A program made the position numbers and the translations under genes. The notes under the pieces are model-generated. The model was not told where the DNA came from. It searched no databases and saw nothing but the letters and a program-made list of their open reading frames with translations. Of a stretch of DNA of 47,465 nucleotides, positions 12,699-26,244 are shown one piece after another. Position 1 is the first letter of the stretch; every line of letters starts with the position of its first letter. The DNA comes from Geminicoccaceae bacterium (GTDB lineage: Bacteria; Pseudomonadota; Alphaproteobacteria; Geminicoccales; Geminicoccaceae), in assembly GCA_023512415.1 (NCBI GenBank), contig JAILZQ010000004.1, positions 1-47,465 of the forward strand. Reading direction: 5' to 3'.

Positions 12699-14225
12699 AT
12701 GAGGCTGCCGCCACACACTACGCGTCCGGGTCGCTTCAAGCTCCCCGTGCTGTTGGCCTCGGCCGCGGTCGCATTGGCTGCGGACCCGTCGTCCGCGGGA
12801 TCGATCACCGACACGGTGCGCGCTGCCCTGTCCTCGAACCCCGACATCGCCATCGTGAAGGCCGATCGTCGGGCCGTGGATCAAGAGCTGCGTCAGGCGC
12901 GGGCAGGCTACCTGCCTTCGCTCGATCTGCGCGGCGGGGTCGGCATCGAGGCCGCGACCACGCCGGCCACCCGCCGGCGCGGTCCGGGTAGCACCAATGC
13001 CACGCAGCAAACCAGGACCGAAGCACAGCTCAAGCTCTCGCAGATGTTGTTCGATGGCTTCGCCACTCAGGCCGAGGTCGAGCGGCAAACGGCAAGGGTC
13101 GACAGTGCCGCATATAGGGTCCAGGAGGCTGCCGAATTCGTTGCCGTCGACGCCATCGAGGCTCATCTCGACATTCTCCGCAATCAGCAGATCGTAGCCC
13201 TGAACCGCGAAAACGTCGCGGCGCACGAGCGCATTCTGCGGCAGGTTCGGAGCCTCGAGAGAGCCGGCCGGGCGGACGTCGCCGACGTCCAACAGACGGA
13301 GGCTCGTCTCGCCAACGCACAGGCCGCGCTCGCCCAGGCGAATGGGGCGCTCGCCGACGCTATCGCGCTGTACCAACGGGTGGTGGGGCGCGATCCGGAA
13401 GCCCTCTCCCTCGATCCGCCACCGACATCGGCGTTGCCCAAGGATCGCGAAACCGCAGCGGCTCTCGCCTCGATGCAGAGCCCGACGGTTTTGATCGCCG
13501 CTGCGGACGTCGACGTCGCCGCCGCGGAGCTGCGCGGTTCTCGGGCGGGCTATTATCCTCGAATCGACGCGGAACTCACCGCGCAAAGTTTCCGCAATGT
13601 CGATGGGGCAGAGGGGCACGACAGTTCGGCGTCCGCGATGTTGGTGCTTCGATACAATCTGTTTCGCGGAGGTGCGGATGTCGCGCGGGAGCGGGAGGCG
13701 TTCCACCGCCTGAACGAAGCACGAGCGAGCTTGGTGAAGCAGCGGCTGAAGGCCGAAGAGCAGGCGCGACAATCCGTCAATGCTTACGAAACAGCGAGGG
13801 CCAGGGTAGCGGCTCAGCGAGCACGCGTCGAAGCGCAACGTCGCACCCGCGACGCCTATGTCTCGCAGTTCGAGCTCGGCCAGAGGGATCTGCTCGACGT
13901 GCTCGACGCGGAGAACGAGCTATTTTTGGCCCGCGTTCAGCTCGTCACCGCCGAGTTCACCGAGCGCTTTGCAATCTACAAGATCCTGGGCGTGACCGGA
14001 ACATTACTCGACACGTTGGAGATCGCGCGTCCGAGAGAGCACATCAACGTCTATCGCTCGCCCCAGCGACAGCAGACGCCTTTGGTGATCAAAGAGAAGT
14101 CACAGCAGCTGGTTGAACCGCGGGCAGAGCCTCGAGCCATCCGGGACACCAACGCCGGGGAGCCTCCGGCAAGTGCGATCGACGGAGCTGACGTGATCAA
14201 TCGGCCGCCGAGCGCGCGACGGTGA
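12699..14225 (+). CDS. TolC-family outer membrane efflux/secretion protein
   Basis: Outer-membrane channel and periplasmic tunnel of a type I system, 508 aa. A signal peptide covers about residues 1-33 (hydrophobic LPVLLASAAVALAA). The two-fold repeat of TolC is visible. The first half has YLPSLDLRGGVG, QTRTEAQLKLSQMLFDGF and long Ala/Gln/Arg helices. The second half has RAGYYPRIDAELTAQS, AMLVLRYNLFRGG and the periplasmic hairpin YVSQFELGQRDLLDVLDAENEL. A hydrophilic tail of about 60 residues follows the last helix. It is divergent from the exporter and adaptor genes, completing the three-part system. Confidence 0.95.
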   Translation: MRLPPHTTRPGRFKLPVLLASAAVALAADPSSAGSITDTVRAALSSNPDIAIVKADRRAVDQELRQARAGYLPSLDLRGGVGIEAATTPATRRRGPGSTNATQQTRTEAQLKLSQMLFDGFATQAEVERQTARVDSAAYRVQEAAEFVAVDAIEAHLDILRNQQIVALNRENVAAHERILRQVRSLERAGRADVADVQQTEARLANAQAALAQANGALADAIALYQRVVGRDPEALSLDPPPTSALPKDRETAAALASMQSPTVLIAAADVDVAAAELRGSRAGYYPRIDAELTAQSFRNVDGAEGHDSSASAMLVLRYNLFRGGADVAREREAFHRLNEARASLVKQRLKAEEQARQSVNAYETARARVAAQRARVEAQRRTRDAYVSQFELGQRDLLDVLDAENELFLARVQLVTAEFTERFAIYKILGVTGTLLDTLEIARPREHINVYRSPQRQQTPLVIKEKSQQLVEPRAEPRAIRDTNAGEPPASAIDGADVINRPPSARR

Positions 14226-20660: not shown

Positions 20661-21957
20661 CGGCGTGGTCCCCGCTCCACCCGTCTATCGGCGGTGTTCC
20701 GAGGCTCGAGCCTGGCCCGTCGGTCCACCCGCTTTCCGGCTGTGAGCGATCGAGGACAGAACCACTCGGCGCAGACCCCTCTCGGTCGGGCTAGGCTCGA
20801 GCCCATTCCCGTTCGCAAGCCTCTCCCGCGCACTCGATGACCGCTCCAGAGGTTGAAAAGGTCTGGAGATAGTCGCGGGCCTCGCTCCGAGGTCGAGGGC
20901 CTGGCCGGTCCGGTTGTTATCGAACTAGACAGAGCATCTGCCGAGCTGAAAGGACCGAACGAGAGCGGCCCATCGACGACGAAAGGCGGTCGATTTTTTG
21001 CCCGAGCGTCACGATCCCATTTAAGTCGTGCCGCATGGTTCCAACGAGTCGGTGGGCGAAAACGCGGTGGGTCACCTCGAAAGAGAGGAGGGCAAGACCA
21101 GCTGACCCCTCGTAGGCCCCCTCCTGGGTAACGCAGCGCATCAACGCCCGTGCTCTGGATTCGCTCGGCCAAAGCTGCGCCACGTGCTCGGCGATGAACT
21201 CACCAACCGCCAACGATTTTCAGATCGGAACTTCGTCGACGAAAAGTACGCGCCCCTCGCGCGCAAGCCGGATCGAGCCGTCCCAACGATCCGCGATCCC
21301 CCTCGGACGAACCCGAAATATCAAGCCCGCTAGCCGCCTCGCTAGCCCGAGTTGGAAAGATGCCGCCGAACTCGCCTGCCCCCTATGCGCAGGGTCAACT
21401 CTGCCAGCCGGCCGAGGTTTCCCGGTTCGCGGTCGCTTGCGAAAAAAGGTCGTGCAGGGCTTTGCGGTGCGCCATAGTTATAATATTGCATAGCATTTTC
21501 TACACTACACCCATCGCCTTTGCACGTCCCCCCTTCTGTTGCGCCGCTTTGCCGTTGCACTTAAAGTGACACAGCCGACTTGGGGGCAACGAAAACGAGC
21601 TCCTCGTCCACGAGAGTGGCGTCCAGGGAACGCTAATTGCGAGATGGCAACATCCTACTGGCCGACCGGCGACCCTGAAATCCACTCTCGGTCGGCGTTG
21701 TTCGTGATGGCCGAGCTCGAGGCGTCGCGCCGGTCCCTTGGATCGAGGGGGCGAATCGACTGGCCTCACGGCGGTCGCGGACCAGCCCCTCCACCCCGAG
21801 TGTCAGCCGAGCGATCCATGAGGGGGGCGGCAATGACAAAGGGGGCGGTTATGACGGATAGAGTCATCGGTGGGTACGGGCGCCGCGGCGCATTGGATCG
21901 GGCCTTTTTCGGCGCAAATCGAGTTCGACGGGCAACCAGTCAGGGGAGGTAAGTCGC
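20661..21957. other. Gene-poor 1.3-kb stretch
   Basis: Largest stretch without a confident gene. On the minus strand two frames look slightly protein-like. One is 20917-21213 (98 codons, beginning MAVGEFIAEHVAQLWP). Just upstream of it, ending near 21225, is a start-less frame ending REGRVLFVDEVPI. Neither matches a family I know; they may be remnants of a decayed gene. From about 21470 to 21540 the DNA becomes AT-rich and contains a perfect TATAAT at 21479-21484 without a good -35. A tandem 18-bp repeat follows at 21823. A 45-codon frame from ATG 21818 ends 5 bp before the next gene. Confidence 0.5.
21823..21858 (+). repeat. Two tandem 18-bp direct repeats upstream of the cyclase gene
   Basis: Unit 1 (21823-21840) begins GGGGGCGGCAATGACA and unit 2 (21841-21858) begins GGGGGCGGTTATGACG; they differ at three of the first 16 positions. 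They lie about 100 bp before the cyclase start. An 18-bp period is near two helical turns, so both copies face a similar side of the DNA, as for a tandemly binding regulator. They could also be chance similarity. Confidence 0.45.
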
Positions 21958-23019
21958 ATGCGCAACATCGCGCTCTTCGTCGGTGCAATTGTGGGCATTG
22001 CTGTCTTTAGCAGTGGCCAAAGCAATGCGTGCACAGCGGACAATTGGCAGGCCTGCAAGGGCAAGCCGTGGGTCGACGGCGACGTTATGGAAACGCCTTT
22101 GGGCTCGAAGTGGTGGCCGCACCCGATCTGGGGAGCGGGAGACGAGGCGGGCTCGACCAACTGGTACGCCAAGCGTGAGGTCGTGCTGCGGGCGCTGCGC
22201 GAAGCCGACAAGGGCAAGGTGTACAAACTGGGGCAGCCCTACGACAGCGAGATGCCGCTGTTCGGCTCCCGCCGCTTCGCCCTGCGTATTCCAGGGACCC
22301 CGACCGGTGGGCCGTTCGGCGCGAACAAAATCGTCTGGCACGACGAGTTCCTGGCCACCGAGATCGGCCAGGTTGGTACGCAGTTCGACGGTCTCGGGCA
22401 CATTGGCGTCCAGGTGGGAGCGCCGGGCGACAAGACGAACATGCGCTTTTACAATGGGTTCACGGTGGCCGAGATCGGCAATGCCTACGGTCTTAAGAAA
22501 CTCGGGGCAGAAAAACTGAGGCCCATCGTGGCGCGCGGCATCCTCCTCGACATCGCCGGCGCCAAGGGCGTCGAGATGCTCGATGCCGGCTACGAGATCA
22601 CCATGGCCGACGTCCGCCTCGCCCTTGAAAAGCAGGGCATGAAGGACTTCCGGTTCGCCGAGGGTGACGCGATCGCGTTCTACACGGGTTGGTCGAAACT
22701 CTGGAAGAAGGACAACGCCAAGTTCAATTCCGGTGAGCCCGGTTTCGGCATGGAGGTGGCGCGCTGGATGGCCGAAACCGTCAAGGTCGGCGTCACCGTC
22801 GCCGACACTTGGGCGGGCGAGGTCGTTCCCAATCCCGATCCGGCTTGCGCTTTCTGTGTCCACACCTACTTGCAGACCCGCCACGGTATCGTTCATCAGG
22901 AGAACGCAAAGCTCGACGAGCTCGTCGCCGACCGTGTTTGGGTGTTCACTTACATTTATAGTCCCGCCCCGATCGTGGGGGCGACGGGGTCGATCGGCGC
23001 GCCGATCGCGATCGATTGA
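21958..23019 (+). CDS. Exported cyclase-family protein (kynurenine formamidase-like fold)
   Basis: 353 aa with a signal peptide (about residues 1-24, MRNIALFVGAIVGIAVFSSG), so probably periplasmic. The body resembles the cyclase family (PF04199), metal-dependent hydrolases related to kynurenine formamidase and isatin hydrolase. In that family the metal site is HxGTHxDxxxH. Here residues 138-148 read QVGTQFDGLGH, so both early histidines are glutamine, while D144 and H148 remain. GTQ is common in the long subfamily. Other conserved parts are ARGILLDIAG, FAEGDAIAFYTGW and the C-terminal VHTYLQTRHGIVHQEN. Start ATG 21958 has GGGGAGG 8 bp upstream. It is a single gene ended by a strong terminator. 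Substrate unknown. Confidence 0.85.
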   Translation: MRNIALFVGAIVGIAVFSSGQSNACTADNWQACKGKPWVDGDVMETPLGSKWWPHPIWGAGDEAGSTNWYAKREVVLRALREADKGKVYKLGQPYDSEMPLFGSRRFALRIPGTPTGGPFGANKIVWHDEFLATEIGQVGTQFDGLGHIGVQVGAPGDKTNMRFYNGFTVAEIGNAYGLKKLGAEKLRPIVARGILLDIAGAKGVEMLDAGYEITMADVRLALEKQGMKDFRFAEGDAIAFYTGWSKLWKKDNAKFNSGEPGFGMEVARWMAETVKVGVTVADTWAGEVVPNPDPACAFCVHTYLQTRHGIVHQENAKLDELVADRVWVFTYIYSPAPIVGATGSIGAPIAID

Positions 23020-23047
23020 CGCGGCCCCCACGTTTCACGTCGACAAG

Positions 23048-23076
23048 AAAGGGGGCGGCACAGTGCCGCCCCCTTT
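23048..23076 (+). terminator. Strong hairpin terminator after the cyclase gene
   Basis: AAAGGGGGCGGCA (23048-23060), loop CAG, TGCCGCCCCCTTT (23064-23076): a perfect 13-bp stem 28 bp after the cyclase stop. The A/T ends of the stem supply a short TTT, followed by the mixed GGTTCTGTTG. It fits an intrinsic terminator, possibly bidirectional. Confidence 0.8.
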
Positions 23077-23110
23077 GGTTCTGTTGCGGGCCGGTTCGGT
23101 GGTCAGCGGC

Positions 23111-23761
23111 ATGGATGTTTCGCCTGTTGTTCTCGTCGAGGGCTTGCGCCTTTCCGTAGGTTCGCGAGTCCTTCTCGGCCTCGATCGGTGGGAGGTTCGT
23201 CCGGCCGAACGCGTGGTCGTGCTCGGACCGTCAGGCAGCGGTAAGACGACCTTCTTGCATGTCCTCGCCGGCCTCCGATCGGCAGACGCGGGCCGCGTCG
23301 TCGTGGATGGCGAGGAGCTCGGGCGACTGTCCGAAGCTCGCCGGGACGTGTTCCGCGGACGACGCATCGGTTTCGTTCACCAAACCCTGCACTTGGTGGC
23401 GGCTCTCACGGTCCTCGACAATCTTCGCCTCGCAGCATTCGTGGTCGGCAAGCGCGTCGCCGACGAACATCTCCTCGCCCTTCTCGCGAGCGTCGGCCTC
23501 CGGGATCGGTCCCGAGCGCGTACGTTCGAGCTCAGTCACGGAGAGGCGCAGCGGGTGGCTATCGCTCGAGCGCTGGTCAACGATCCGTGCCTCGTCCTCG
23601 CCGACGAGCCCACATCGGCGCTGGATGACCGAAACGCCCGGCAGATCCTCGATCTCCTCCTCGCAACGACAGCCACGCGGGGCGCTGCCCTCGTGGTCGC
23701 AACCCACGACATGCGCCTCCTGCCAGCCTTCGATCGGCGTCTTGAGCTGGGCCGCGAGTGA
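23111..23761 (+). CDS. ABC transporter ATPase (LolD/MacB-like)
   Basis: 216 aa, ATPase of an FtsX-type ABC module. Walker A is GPSGSGKTT, the Q-loop is in VHQTLHLV, and the signature is LSHGEAQRVAIARAL with His in place of the second Gly. Walker B is [13 protein letters not shown] and the switch histidine is in VATHDMRLL. ATG 23111 is chosen; GTG 23099 is possible. It overlaps the permease gene by one base (TGATG) or by four if the permease starts at GTG 23758. With the permease and DUF3299 gene it forms a three-gene module. The substrate is inferred only from analogy. Confidence 0.92.
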   Translation: MDVSPVVLVEGLRLSVGSRVLLGLDRWEVRPAERVVVLGPSGSGKTTFLHVLAGLRSADAGRVVVDGEELGRLSEARRDVFRGRRIGFVHQTLHLVAALTVLDNLRLAAFVVGKRVADEHLLALLASVGLRDRSRARTFELSHGEAQRVAIARALVNDPCLVLADEPTSALDDRNARQILDLLLATTATRGAALVVATHDMRLLPAFDRRLELGRE

Positions 23762-24957
23762 TGACGCTGACCCGGCTGTGCCTCGCGTACCTTCGACTGC
23801 GCGTCGGGACGACGTTGCTGAACGTCTCGCTGGTGGCACTGGGCGTTGCGATCGTCTCTTCGATTCTGCTCGTCGGCAGTCAGCTACGGGATCGAGCGGA
23901 GCGGGAGATCAGGGGCGTCGATTTGGTGGTCGGTGCCAAGGGAAGTCCGCTCCAGCTCATTTTGTCGGCGGTGTTTCAAATCGATATCCCGTCCGGTAAC
24001 GTGCGTCTCGCCGAGGTCGCGTCTCTTCGCACGCATCCCCTGGTAGCGAGCGCGATACCGCTCGCCATGGGCGACAACGCGGGCGGCTACCGAATAGTCG
24101 GCACCGAGCCCCACTTTCTTCACGAGCGGGGGATCTCGATCGCTGCCGGGAGGCCCTGGCAAGCGCCCATGGAAGCGGTACTCGGCTCCGAGGTCGCGCG
24201 GGCAACCGGTTTGCGACCGGGCGCGAGTTTCGTCGGCTCGCACGGCCTGGTCGGCGGATTCGCCCATGCCGAGCATCCCTATATCGTCGTCGGAATTGCG
24301 AACCCTACGGGCACAGCTGCCGACCGACTGATCCTGACGTCTCTGGAGAGCGTTTGGCGCGTTCACGCACCCCGGAGCACCGGCAGTTCGACCGAGAGCC
24401 ACGAGCACGAGGACGGCGAGATCACAGCCCTCCTGATCCGATACCGAACGCCGCTCGCCGCCGTCCAGCTGCCCAGGCTCGTCAACGCGCGGCCGATGCT
24501 GATCGCCGCTGTCCCGGCCGTCGAGGCGGCGCGTCTTTTGAGTATCGTCGGGTTCGGCCTGGAGGCGCTTCGCCTTCTCGGCTCGGCGCTCCTGGTTCTG
24601 GCTGCCCTTTCGGTGCTCGTAGCCTTGACCAATGCTCTCTCGGATCGACGCGCCGATCTGGCGCTCATGCGGGTCCTGGGCGCCACCCGAGGCCTCCTCA
24701 TTCGCGCTCTCCTCCTGGAGGCGCTCCTTCTGACTGCAGCAGGGCTCGTGCTCGGGTTCCTCCTGGCACACCTCTCGCTCGAGTTCCTGATCCGTCTGCT
24801 GCCGGAAGCGCGAGCAACGGGCCTGTCGGGTTTCACGATAGCTCCCGATGAGATCATGCTGGCTCCAGCGGTCTCGTTGCTGGCAATCGGCGCGGCTGCG
24901 ATACCGGCTCTGCGCCTGTATCGGTCGAACCTCGTTGAGACGTTAGCTCGTGGGTAG
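23761..24957 (+). CDS. FtsX-like ABC transporter permease with His-rich periplasmic loop
   Basis: About 398 aa in MacB/FtsX topology: one N-terminal membrane helix (about 20-40), a large periplasmic domain, then three C-terminal helices (about 260-290, 310-340, 365-385). The family motif near the end reads ALMRVLGATRGLLIRALLLEA. The periplasmic part is unusually rich in histidine, including SHGLVGGFAHAEHPY and SHEHEDGE near residues 214-221, immediately before the conserved EITALLIRYR. Such loops are typical of metal handling. GTG 23758 is an alternative start one codon upstream. It is coupled to the ATPase in front and the DUF3299 gene behind. Confidence 0.92.
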   Translation: MTLTRLCLAYLRLRVGTTLLNVSLVALGVAIVSSILLVGSQLRDRAEREIRGVDLVVGAKGSPLQLILSAVFQIDIPSGNVRLAEVASLRTHPLVASAIPLAMGDNAGGYRIVGTEPHFLHERGISIAAGRPWQAPMEAVLGSEVARATGLRPGASFVGSHGLVGGFAHAEHPYIVVGIANPTGTAADRLILTSLESVWRVHAPRSTGSSTESHEHEDGEITALLIRYRTPLAAVQLPRLVNARPMLIAAVPAVEAARLLSIVGFGLEALRLLGSALLVLAALSVLVALTNALSDRRADLALMRVLGATRGLLIRALLLEALLLTAAGLVLGFLLAHLSLEFLIRLLPEARATGLSGFTIAPDEIMLAPAVSLLAIGAAAIPALRLYRSNLVETLARG

Positions 24958-24967
24958 GCTACAGCTG

Positions 24968-25480
24968 ATGAAAAGCGTTTGGCCGCTGTTGTTCCTCGGT
25001 TCGGTTCTGACGATCGGCGCGCCGGAAGACTGCCGTGCCTTCACCATCGGACAGCAAGTTTTCCCCCTCGGGGGCGACCACGACCCGAAGATGCTGGAAC
25101 GCGCCGGTGTGGTCTCGTGGGACACGCTTCGCGAGCTCGACGTGACCTACGAGACCAAGGGTCCGGGCATGACGGACTTCCGGACGAGTTTCACGTCCGC
25201 GCTTCTGGAGCTCGACGGGAAGACCGTGAAATTGATCGGTTTCATCTATCCCTTGGAGGCAGCCGAACAGCATCAGCGGTTCCTGCTCTCGGCCTATCCA
25301 CCGAGCTGCCCGTTCTGCTTGCCCGGAGGGGCTACCGAGATGGTCGAGGTGCTCGCCAGCGCCCCGGTCAAGTTCACCTACGATGCGCTCGTGCTGCAAG
25401 GCCGGTTCGAGCTGCTTCGTGACGATCCTTCCGGTCTGCTCTATCGCCTCCACGACGCCCGCCCCGTGGTCTTGAACTGA
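24968..25480 (+). CDS. Exported DUF3299 protein
   Basis: 170 aa from ATG 24968; GTG 24950 overlapping the permease stop is an alternative. The signal peptide is about residues 1-24 (MKSVWPLLFLGSVLTIGAPE). The DUF3299 hallmarks are VKLIGFIYPLE and the PPSCPFCLPGG motif with C114 and C117, then VEVLASAPVKFTYDALVLQGRFEL. In other bacteria DUF3299 proteins accompany exactly this ATPase/permease pair, in loci linked to zinc acquisition (zrg genes of Vibrio, from memory). The CxxC could bind metal or be redox-active. I infer a periplasmic metal-related accessory role. Confidence 0.87.
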   Translation: MKSVWPLLFLGSVLTIGAPEDCRAFTIGQQVFPLGGDHDPKMLERAGVVSWDTLRELDVTYETKGPGMTDFRTSFTSALLELDGKTVKLIGFIYPLEAAEQHQRFLLSAYPPSCPFCLPGGATEMVEVLASAPVKFTYDALVLQGRFELLRDDPSGLLYRLHDARPVVLN

Positions 25481-25484
25481 TAGG

Positions 25485-25498
25485 CGGAGCGCGCTCCG
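25485..25498. terminator. Perfect palindrome after the DUF3299 gene
   Basis: CGGAGCGCGCTCCG, 4 bp after the stop codon; it can fold as a 5-bp stem with a CGCG loop. Followed by ATTGG, with no T run. Possibly a weak terminator or processing site of the ABC module transcript. Confidence 0.35.
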
Positions 25499-25653
25499 AT
25501 TGGACCGGGCGTTCGAGGCGCTCGTTGGGGTTCGAAACGTTTGGGCGGCATGTTGCCAGGCTTGGCATCGTCGGAACTGCCGACGCGAGTGCGCGCCTAA
25601 GGGTATCCGATGCCCTCTGGCGAGTCTTCGCCCGGGAACCTACGTTGGTGGGC

Positions 25654-26244
25654 ATGAGCGTTCCGGTCAGAGGATATTTCGGTGTCGGGGCGGAGGGGAT
25701 CAGCAAGCCGGGAAACCTGGGAGCGCTGGTCCGAACCGCGCACGCTTTCGGTGCGAGCTTCCTCTTCTTCGTGAATGCCTATTGGAGGATACGCGAGGCG
25801 ATCTCCGATACCTCCAAGGCCGAACGCAGTGTTCCCTTGTTCGAGGCTCCTTCGGCCGGGGAGCTGGTTCTGCCGCGTCGGTGCAAGCTCGTCGGGGTGG
25901 AGCTGACCGAGGATGCCATACCATTGCCCAGCTTCCGACATCCCCCGAATGCCGCTTACGTCTTCGGCCCGGAGCGCGGCTCTCTTTCGCCGGAGATGAC
26001 GGCGCGTTGCGATTGGGTGGTGCGGATCCCGACCCAATTCTGCCTCAATCTCGGCGTCGCTGTGGCGATCGTTCTGTACGACCGGTTGCTTTGCTATGGG
26101 CGGTGCGCGGAACGCCCCGTGCAGAGCGGGGGGCCGAGCGAGCAGCTGCCGCCGCATGTTCACGGCCGACCGGTTTTCCGACGGAACCTCGACGGACCGG
26201 AAAAGCGTGCAATCCCCGCCACCGACGGAGGGTCGAAAGGGTGA
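25654..26244 (+). CDS. TrmH/SpoU-family (SPOUT) RNA methyltransferase
   Basis: Transfers methyl from S-adenosylmethionine to RNA, probably 2'-O of a tRNA or rRNA nucleotide. From ATG 25654 it is 196 aa. The three SPOUT motifs are visible: NLGALVRTAHAFGA (motif 1, with the RNA-binding Arg), AAYVFGPERGSLSPE (motif 2) and IPTQFCLNLGVAVAIVLYDRL read as IPTQFCLNLG plus AVAIVLYDRL (motif 3, trefoil knot). The open frame extends to 25525, but the extra 43 residues have no family counterpart. It overlaps the next gene by 4 bp (GTGA). The exact target nucleotide cannot be told. Confidence 0.9.
   Translation: MSVPVRGYFGVGAEGISKPGNLGALVRTAHAFGASFLFFVNAYWRIREAISDTSKAERSVPLFEAPSAGELVLPRRCKLVGVELTEDAIPLPSFRHPPNAAYVFGPERGSLSPEMTARCDWVVRIPTQFCLNLGVAVAIVLYDRLLCYGRCAERPVQSGGPSEQLPPHVHGRPVFRRNLDGPEKRAIPATDGGSKG

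Follow-up and report, generated by a model that had tools for sequence, protein, structure and literature searches.

The best-described relatives of the locus studied here are the zrg genes of Vibrio and the genes PA4063-4066 of Pseudomonas aeruginosa. In V. parahaemolyticus, the zrg genes for a DUF3299 protein, a permease, an ATPase and the DUF2796 protein ZrgA are reported to be upregulated 76- to 206-fold when zinc is limiting (PMC9817125), and zrgA is needed for zinc-limited growth both in this species (PMC9817125) and in a znuA background of V. cholerae (PMC9820375). PA4063-4066 are described as Zur-regulated, and PA4064/PA4065 have been modelled as a split MacB and proposed to export pyochelin-cobalt; deletion of PA4065 did not lower zinc content further, and pyochelin export persisted (PMC11481552). 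ZrgA and PA4063 are reported to bind zinc, and the structure of PA4066 gave no clue to its role (PMC9817125, PMC11481552, PMC9820375, PMC8561739, PMC4176598, PMC5387054, PMC6103462, PMC10957091). The module has been labelled both an importer of zinc and an exporter of pyochelin-cobalt, and no role is known for its DUF3299 part. Here, we describe a related trio of genes in a window of 47,465 nt (the whole stretch of DNA that was analyzed) from a Geminicoccaceae bacterium (assembly GCA_023512415.1, contig JAILZQ010000004.1, positions 1 to 47,465). A first-pass annotation of this window had placed a LolD-like ATPase, an FtsX permease and a DUF3299 protein at 23111-25480, and Pfam bore out all three assignments (PF00005, MacB_PCD plus FtsX, and PF11736, respectively). 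Its statement that related trios are zinc-regulated agrees with the reports on V. parahaemolyticus zrg (PMC9817125) and P. aeruginosa PA4063-4066 (PMC11481552).

A tightly coupled trio without ZrgA

Open reading frames and Pfam matches place the following genes on the (+) strand of the window:

23111..23761, (+) strand: LolD/MacB-type ATP-binding cassette (ABC) ATPase, 216 amino acids, ZrgC-like (PF00005, 1e-29; best NCBIfam model LolD, TIGR02211)
23761..24957, (+) strand: MacB-fold FtsX-type permease, 398 amino acids, type C relative of ZrgB (MacB_PCD PF12704, 5.9e-15; FtsX PF02687, 3.8e-11)
24968..25480, (+) strand: DUF3299 OB-fold protein, 170 amino acids, ZrgE-like (PF11736, 27 bits; cut-off, 22 bits)

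The ATPase stop and the permease ATG share the sequence TGATG, and the DUF3299 gene starts at ATG 24968, 10 nt past the permease stop, with an alternative GTG at 24950 that overlaps the permease gene. The coupling proposed in the first-pass annotation is thus tight and real, and it recurs in relatives from named genomes: within 500 bp and on the same strand, 80 such loci carried the ATPase in 73 cases, a DUF3299-like gene in 74 and both in 70, with a median ATPase-permease gap of -4. These loci are the top 80 of at least 519 found by scanning named genomes with the permease alignment, and they span Bacteroidota, Beta-, Gamma- and Alphaproteobacteria, and others. The N terminus of the DUF3299 protein is signal-like, as judged by eye.

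The three proteins belong to the same families as ZrgC (ATPase), ZrgB (permease) and ZrgE (DUF3299), the last being homologous by profile, and the P. aeruginosa system likewise combines a split MacB-like ATPase and permease with an OB-fold DUF3299 protein (PA4066; PDB entry 4hsp). In contrast to Vibrio zrgABCDE, the window has no ZrgA (DUF2796) and no Zur box, its DUF3299 protein carries CPFC where the canonical protein has C-x-H, and its permease falls into a separate clade. PA4063, the ZrgA homologue of P. aeruginosa, is also without a counterpart in the window, whereas its operon is Zur-controlled and is the proposed pyochelin-cobalt exporter. What the window holds, then, is an ATPase, a permease and a secreted-looking DUF3299 protein that are encoded together, with potentially metal-binding residues conserved and ZrgA absent.

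The relation to Zrg-type modules is secure. We give a probability of roughly 0.5 to the reading that the trio belongs to type C, a branch of the Zrg/PA4064-4066 modules that does without ZrgA, and handles metal by the mechanism proposed below. We do not claim full ZrgABCDE membership, because ZrgA and Zur control were both searched for and neither was found. For the clade, a role involving a transition metal is likely; for the window's organism, it is less certain. The metal, its direction and the mechanism are what we infer below. The module itself is known though poorly understood, and the ZrgA-less clade is a genuine and widespread variant of it, with members in named genomes of Pseudomonadota and Bacteroidota. 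We found no description of this clade, or of a His-rich permease loop, in titles and abstracts on DUF3299, DUF2796, Zrg and PA4063-4066, a search that left most subscription journals uncovered; a word search of the main text of PMC11481552 did not find "histidine."

Two permease clades share a conserved Asp/His set

The first set of loci comprised 112 from class and phylum samples, which became 109 after L019, L024 and L025 proved to lack the permease; for 60 of its regions, the 106 matching genomes were sampled at roughly one per genus (three genera repeated, one four times). The second set comprised 60 loci from 112 matching genomes of one family in another class of the phylum, with several genera repeated. 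It is not a fully independent replicate, because the family was picked for showing both states and supplies 11 of the 69 first-set type Z loci. Regions were chosen with their neighborhoods unseen, although frame lengths were visible in the hit lists. The class-level permease search gave a match in 372 of 387 genomes, which we do not use as a presence count because many of the listed matches were C-terminal only, as expected for other FtsX permeases.

The permeases split at one branch of the tree into types C and Z (support of 97 by the Shimodaira-Hasegawa-like approximate likelihood ratio test only, with quick methods and with L243 and L187 omitted). ZrgA lay beside the permease in 54/69 type Z and 0/40 type C loci of the first set, and near none of the 80 named type C loci (0/80), absence in the two sets referring to the fetched stretch, mostly 4-6 kb on each side, and not to the whole genome. 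The ZrgA profile was seeded with five PF10986 hits; a rescan of 21 of its 56 first-set hits, largely the weaker ones, identified all 21 as PF10986. The 14 second-set ZrgA calls come from the profile alone.

Alignments located the following elements in the window:

24073..24075, (+) strand: Asp105, in the periplasmic domain of the permease
24241..24243, (+) strand: His161 of the permease
24265..24267, (+) strand: His169 of the permease
24322..24324, (+) strand: Asp188 of the permease
24364..24366, (+) strand: His202 of the permease, adjoining the variable loop
24367..24423, (+) strand: loop of variable length in the MacB-like periplasmic domain (residues 203-221), with SHEHEDGE at 213-220
25307..25318, (+) strand: CPFC motif of the DUF3299 protein (residues 114-117)

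The D105/H161/H169/D188/H202 set was complete in 108/109 first-set and 60/60 second-set loci (168/169), in both clades; in the 85-row alignment used for these residues, one gene was entered twice (L049/L015). The set is thereby common to the type Z permeases that lie beside ZrgA genes, the Vibrio sequences themselves not being in the alignment. The sole exception, L186 (from genome G281), is a type C permease with DRQDQ, having lost H161, H169 and H202, and no DUF3299 hit was found nearby.

The DUF3299 proteins of type C and the canonical ones are homologous (hhalign probability of 97, E = 5.9e-11). The CPFC motif noted in the first-pass annotation is confirmed at residues 114-117, and among 58 aligned named type C proteins Cys114 was invariant (58/58), with Cys (n = 56) or His (n = 2) at position 117. 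In the first set, all 62 type Z proteins had C-x-H (CIH, 52; CLH, 7; CVH, 2; CSH, 1), while the 37 type C proteins had CPFC (14), CAFC (5), CPYC (1), CFFC (1), CPFH (7), CPYH (4), CAYH (1), CPYY (2), CPYQ (1) or another motif (1), so that 21 have Cys and 12 have His at the second position (33/37 in all). A DUF3299 hit was missing at three type C and seven type Z loci. That this position is usually Cys or His suggests a metal site. A CxxC within a secreted-looking protein could instead form a redox centre that the ABC module drives or resets, making the trio a thiol-disulfide device. We regard this as highly improbable: the second Cys is replaced by His in 12/37 type C proteins and type Z has C-x-H throughout, and the best structural matches are PA4066 and OB folds rather than thioredoxin. 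Metal ligands would fit better than a disulfide because Cys and His exchange at this position.

A His-rich loop and ZrgA tend to exclude each other

The loop between H202 and T222 of the permease varies in length and is His-rich in many relatives. The SHEHEDGE cluster of the first-pass annotation is present in it, but taken alone it lies within chance expectation, as HxH occurred in 21% of shuffles, and we rejected it as a signal in its own right. It gains meaning because the loop is variable in length and often strongly His-rich in relatives: 29/40 type C loops contained at least two His, with a maximum of 21. The threshold of two His was fixed on part of the first set, and the second set was scored by the same rule.

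Among type Z loci, a loop with at least two His was found in 0/54 with ZrgA versus 10/15 without it in the first set (Fisher's test, 9e-9) and in 1/14 versus 33/46 in the second (2e-5), or 1/68 ZrgA-positive versus 43/61 ZrgA-negative loci combined; Fisher's test disregards the relatedness of loci. L198 and L201, whose contigs end near the permease, are counted here but were excluded from the trait-pair tests given below. The exclusion of ZrgA and His-rich loop is a clear pattern, and correlated evolution of the two is suggested, not proven. In the second set, DUF3299 hits were also unequally distributed, at 14/14 ZrgA-positive versus 25/46 ZrgA-negative loci (missing, e.g., from L294, L295, L296, L298, L302, L303 and L306), and the module may therefore also shed DUF3299.

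Predicted folds and possible export of a metal-chelator complex

The permease is predicted to have a MacB/LolCDE-like fold: its model (predicted local distance difference test score [pLDDT] of 91.3) matched MacB best in the PDB (5gko, template modelling score TMq of 0.70) and also matched LolCDE, HrtBA, YbbAP and BceAB. The DUF3299 model (pLDDT of 85.4) matched PA4066 best (4hsp, E = 8.3e-6), the sole PDB match with an E-value up to 0.001; OB folds came next, and thioredoxin was not among the best matches. The trio shares its permease fold and ATPase family with the MacB/LolCDE/HrtBA superfamily but scores below the LolD, LolCE and MacB model cut-offs, has a DUF3299 partner and carries the conserved D-H-H-D-H set, which may be a further difference. 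LolCDE membership was rejected on these scores (ATPase, 184 against the LolD TIGR02211 cut-off of 307.75 bits; permease, 20.3 against the LolCE TIGR02212 cut-off of 362.45 bits), as was the MacB equivalog NF007826 (106 against 966 bits for the ATPase alone, ATPase and permease being separate proteins).

These folds bear on the suggestion that the trio is a MacB-like exporter of a metal-chelator complex, in which the permease dimer would expel a metallophore with the help of the periplasmic protein, as proposed for PA4064/PA4065 and pyochelin-cobalt. Mutant, feeding and metal-content data from P. aeruginosa speak for it (PMC11481552), as does the fold, which is closest to MacB and also matches HrtBA, a heme exporter by the title of its structure entry. 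HrtBA and the proposed role of the P. aeruginosa homologue (PMC11481552) also make the earlier statement that FtsX permeases generally do not move ions too broad a premise; the mechanochemical device acting on metal-loaded envelope proteins that the first-pass annotation put forward may nonetheless exist. However, no MacA-type adaptor was recognized among the 45 commonest neighbor clusters of the 80 named loci (by eye, on the first 150 residues of representatives, with five clusters checked against Pfam), the reported mutants without PA4065 still export pyochelin (PMC11481552), and chelator export leaves the swap between ZrgA and loop unexplained. We consider it unlikely. As for an adaptor in the window, the 18 proteins scanned contained no member of the HlyD family.

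Neighborhoods of the named relatives

Within 7 kb of the 80 named type C loci, we found genes for Fur-family (26 loci), COG0523/CobW (24), MerC-domain (22) and TonB receptor (20) proteins, with Pfam confirming 26 Fur, 29 COG0523, 22 MerC and 24 TonB cluster members. A zinc-linked subset of COG0523 is reported in the literature (PMC2770081). Only ~0.6 Fur genes would be expected near these loci, because the background of 55 family matches in 96.5 Mb from 20 genomes (0.57/Mb) applies to 1.006 Mb searched; the 20 genomes were hand-picked from the named set and biased to Fur-bearing loci. MerC-domain proteins recur as an unexplained partner (L055, 7715-8158, and 21 other named loci), and in Pedobacter up to three tandem DUF3299-like genes follow the permease (L055, 10168-11501; L058, L059, L065, L066 and L068).

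Zinc genes and Zur boxes in the window's genus

By profile search, the permease is present in 6/6 genomes of the genus; an apparent absence of the trio from G004, suggested by DUF3299 Pfam matches in only 4/5 congeners, does not extend to the permease, which was detected there. The order cyclase-ATPase-permease-DUF3299 is retained in the four congeneric loci examined (L014-L017). Three predictions that had accompanied a zinc role were not borne out: DUF2796/ZrgA (PF10986) is absent from 6/6 genomes; a ZIP match, present in 5/5 congeners (5/6 overall), is lacking in the window's own genome (G000); and the trio has no upstream Zur box, though the lineage's box is recognizable at znuCA in 6/6. 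Per genome there are either one or two ZnuA genes, and of the two Fur-family proteins one is encoded next to znu; a site close to TATCCTATAACGTTGC upstream of znuA is common to all six. A Zur matrix built from six lineage sites, all at znuCA and scoring 33-36 themselves, gave at best 12.8 at the four congeneric trio loci. The genome search with this pattern recovered znuCA in 6/6 genomes plus one weaker site in G003, away from the trio, and a general E. coli-like Zur core had only weak matches. There is no sign of Zur control over the trio in the genus. The zinc link proposed earlier rests on relatives, many of the named ones having Fur, COG0523 and MerC genes nearby; the direct zinc prediction fails in the window's genus.

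These results also bear on two other explanations. The first is a true zinc importer, in which ZrgBC would take zinc to the cytoplasm and ZrgA or the His loop would serve as binding protein. The need for zrgA under zinc limitation in V. parahaemolyticus and in a znuA background of V. cholerae (PMC9820375, PMC9817125) favors it, but the fold is of the MacB/LolCDE type, zinc content is reported not to fall further on PA4065 deletion (PMC11481552) and the trio in this genus has no Zur box, which together make import quite unlikely. The second is an envelope housekeeping device unrelated to metals, e.g., one for lipoprotein release or lipid handling. LolD is the top NCBIfam model of the ATPase, LolCDE is among the fold relatives of the permease, and the gene context in the genus is of a housekeeping kind, with neither a Zur box nor metal genes nearby; against this, the LolD and LolCE cut-offs are missed widely, the loci of relatives have Fur, COG0523 and MerC neighbors, and the His and Cys sets are conserved. 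We judge such a device very unlikely.

Two further observations concern this lineage. G000 contains a second ZnuA-type gene (G000:C191:1617-2432), with no lineage Zur box detectable in the 6 kb examined, perhaps serving another metal. G009, from the window's family, appears by score to have permeases of both type C and type Z (440 and 199 bits; G009:C62:530046-531272 and G009:C57:139925-141163).

Proposed mechanism and points against it

In the reading that we prefer, the ATPase would drive mechanotransmission movements in the periplasmic domain of the permease, where the His-rich loop, which is long in many relatives and minimal in the window, and D105, H161, H169, D188 and H202 may hold or collect a transition metal, most likely zinc. 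Loop and conserved set would thereby take on, in cis, the role that ZrgA plays in trans in the ZrgA-bearing clade, and the Cys/His pair on the OB fold of DUF3299 may accept or donate the metal. The net effect would be periplasmic metal handling; transport across the inner membrane is possible in this scheme and is not required.

Several observations weigh against this reading. The trio has no Zur box, as the best-scoring 21-mer anywhere in the window reached 10.2 with the Zur matrix, within the range of 20 letter-shuffled windows (10.2-20.7), and profiles for Fur, COG0523 and MerC genes had no match in the window or in the four loci examined in congeners. The Fur-bearing named loci are not independent, since 18/26 are from Pedobacter (the remainder being one each from Cyclobacteriaceae, Flammeovirgaceae and Nitrosomonadaceae and five other betaproteobacterial loci), and in less selected samples Fur, COG0523 or MerC genes lay near 15/40 type C and 20/69 type Z loci. 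The window's loop has two His and that of its sister L017 one; fewer than two are present in 11/40 type C loops, and 18/61 ZrgA-negative type Z loci lack a His-rich loop. CPYY (2), CPYQ (1) and one other motif among the 37 type C DUF3299 proteins violate a simple ligand rule. A V. cholerae zrgE knockout alone is reported to leave growth with zinc chelators unaffected (PMC9820375). Finally, trees that excluded the loop columns gave 4-5 concordant and mostly 0, sometimes 1, discordant independent pairs, for a median sign-test p of 0.125, and the test is underpowered. The second trait was unchanged in 8-9 independent pairs (2-3 with the loop as the starting trait) on this larger tree, which omits L337, L234 and L274; the smaller tree gave 3-4 concordant, 0 discordant and 2-3 pairs without a difference in the second trait.

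More broadly, and only tentatively, Zrg-type modules may be periplasmic metal-transfer machines whose His-rich collector is either separate (ZrgA) or built into the permease, with ATP driving transfer among the collector, the D-H-H-D-H centre and the DUF3299 Cys-His site and no need for membrane crossing; type C would be the collector-in-cis form. The exclusion of ZrgA and loop, the five Asp/His residues and the Cys/His exchange in DUF3299 supply named residues and natural swaps with which import, export and periplasmic transfer could be discriminated.

Other features of the window

Scans of 21500-26000 found no known RNA families, the DUF3299 protein had no match in phages, and a plasmid search with the permease returned 118 records, all below 60% identity and none with 80% query coverage. 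Downstream, the trio is followed by a SpoU-type methylase gene and an rlmN-type gene. Upstream, we noted one further element:

23048..23076, (+) strand: GC-rich inverted repeat lying between the cyclase and ATPase genes (from the sequence; the fold of 23020-23111 has a z-score of -1.87)

By eye, similar hairpins are found in the congeneric loci L014, L016 and L017, with L015 unclear. A TolC-type outer membrane efflux protein (PF02321) is encoded at 12699-14225, ~9 kb upstream, with no link to the trio shown. Immediately upstream of the trio lies a cyclase-family gene (PF04199; 21958-23019) whose product has a signal-like N terminus and which is retained in four congeners at 83-92% identity; a secreted metal-dependent hydrolase of this family could be a client of the trio.

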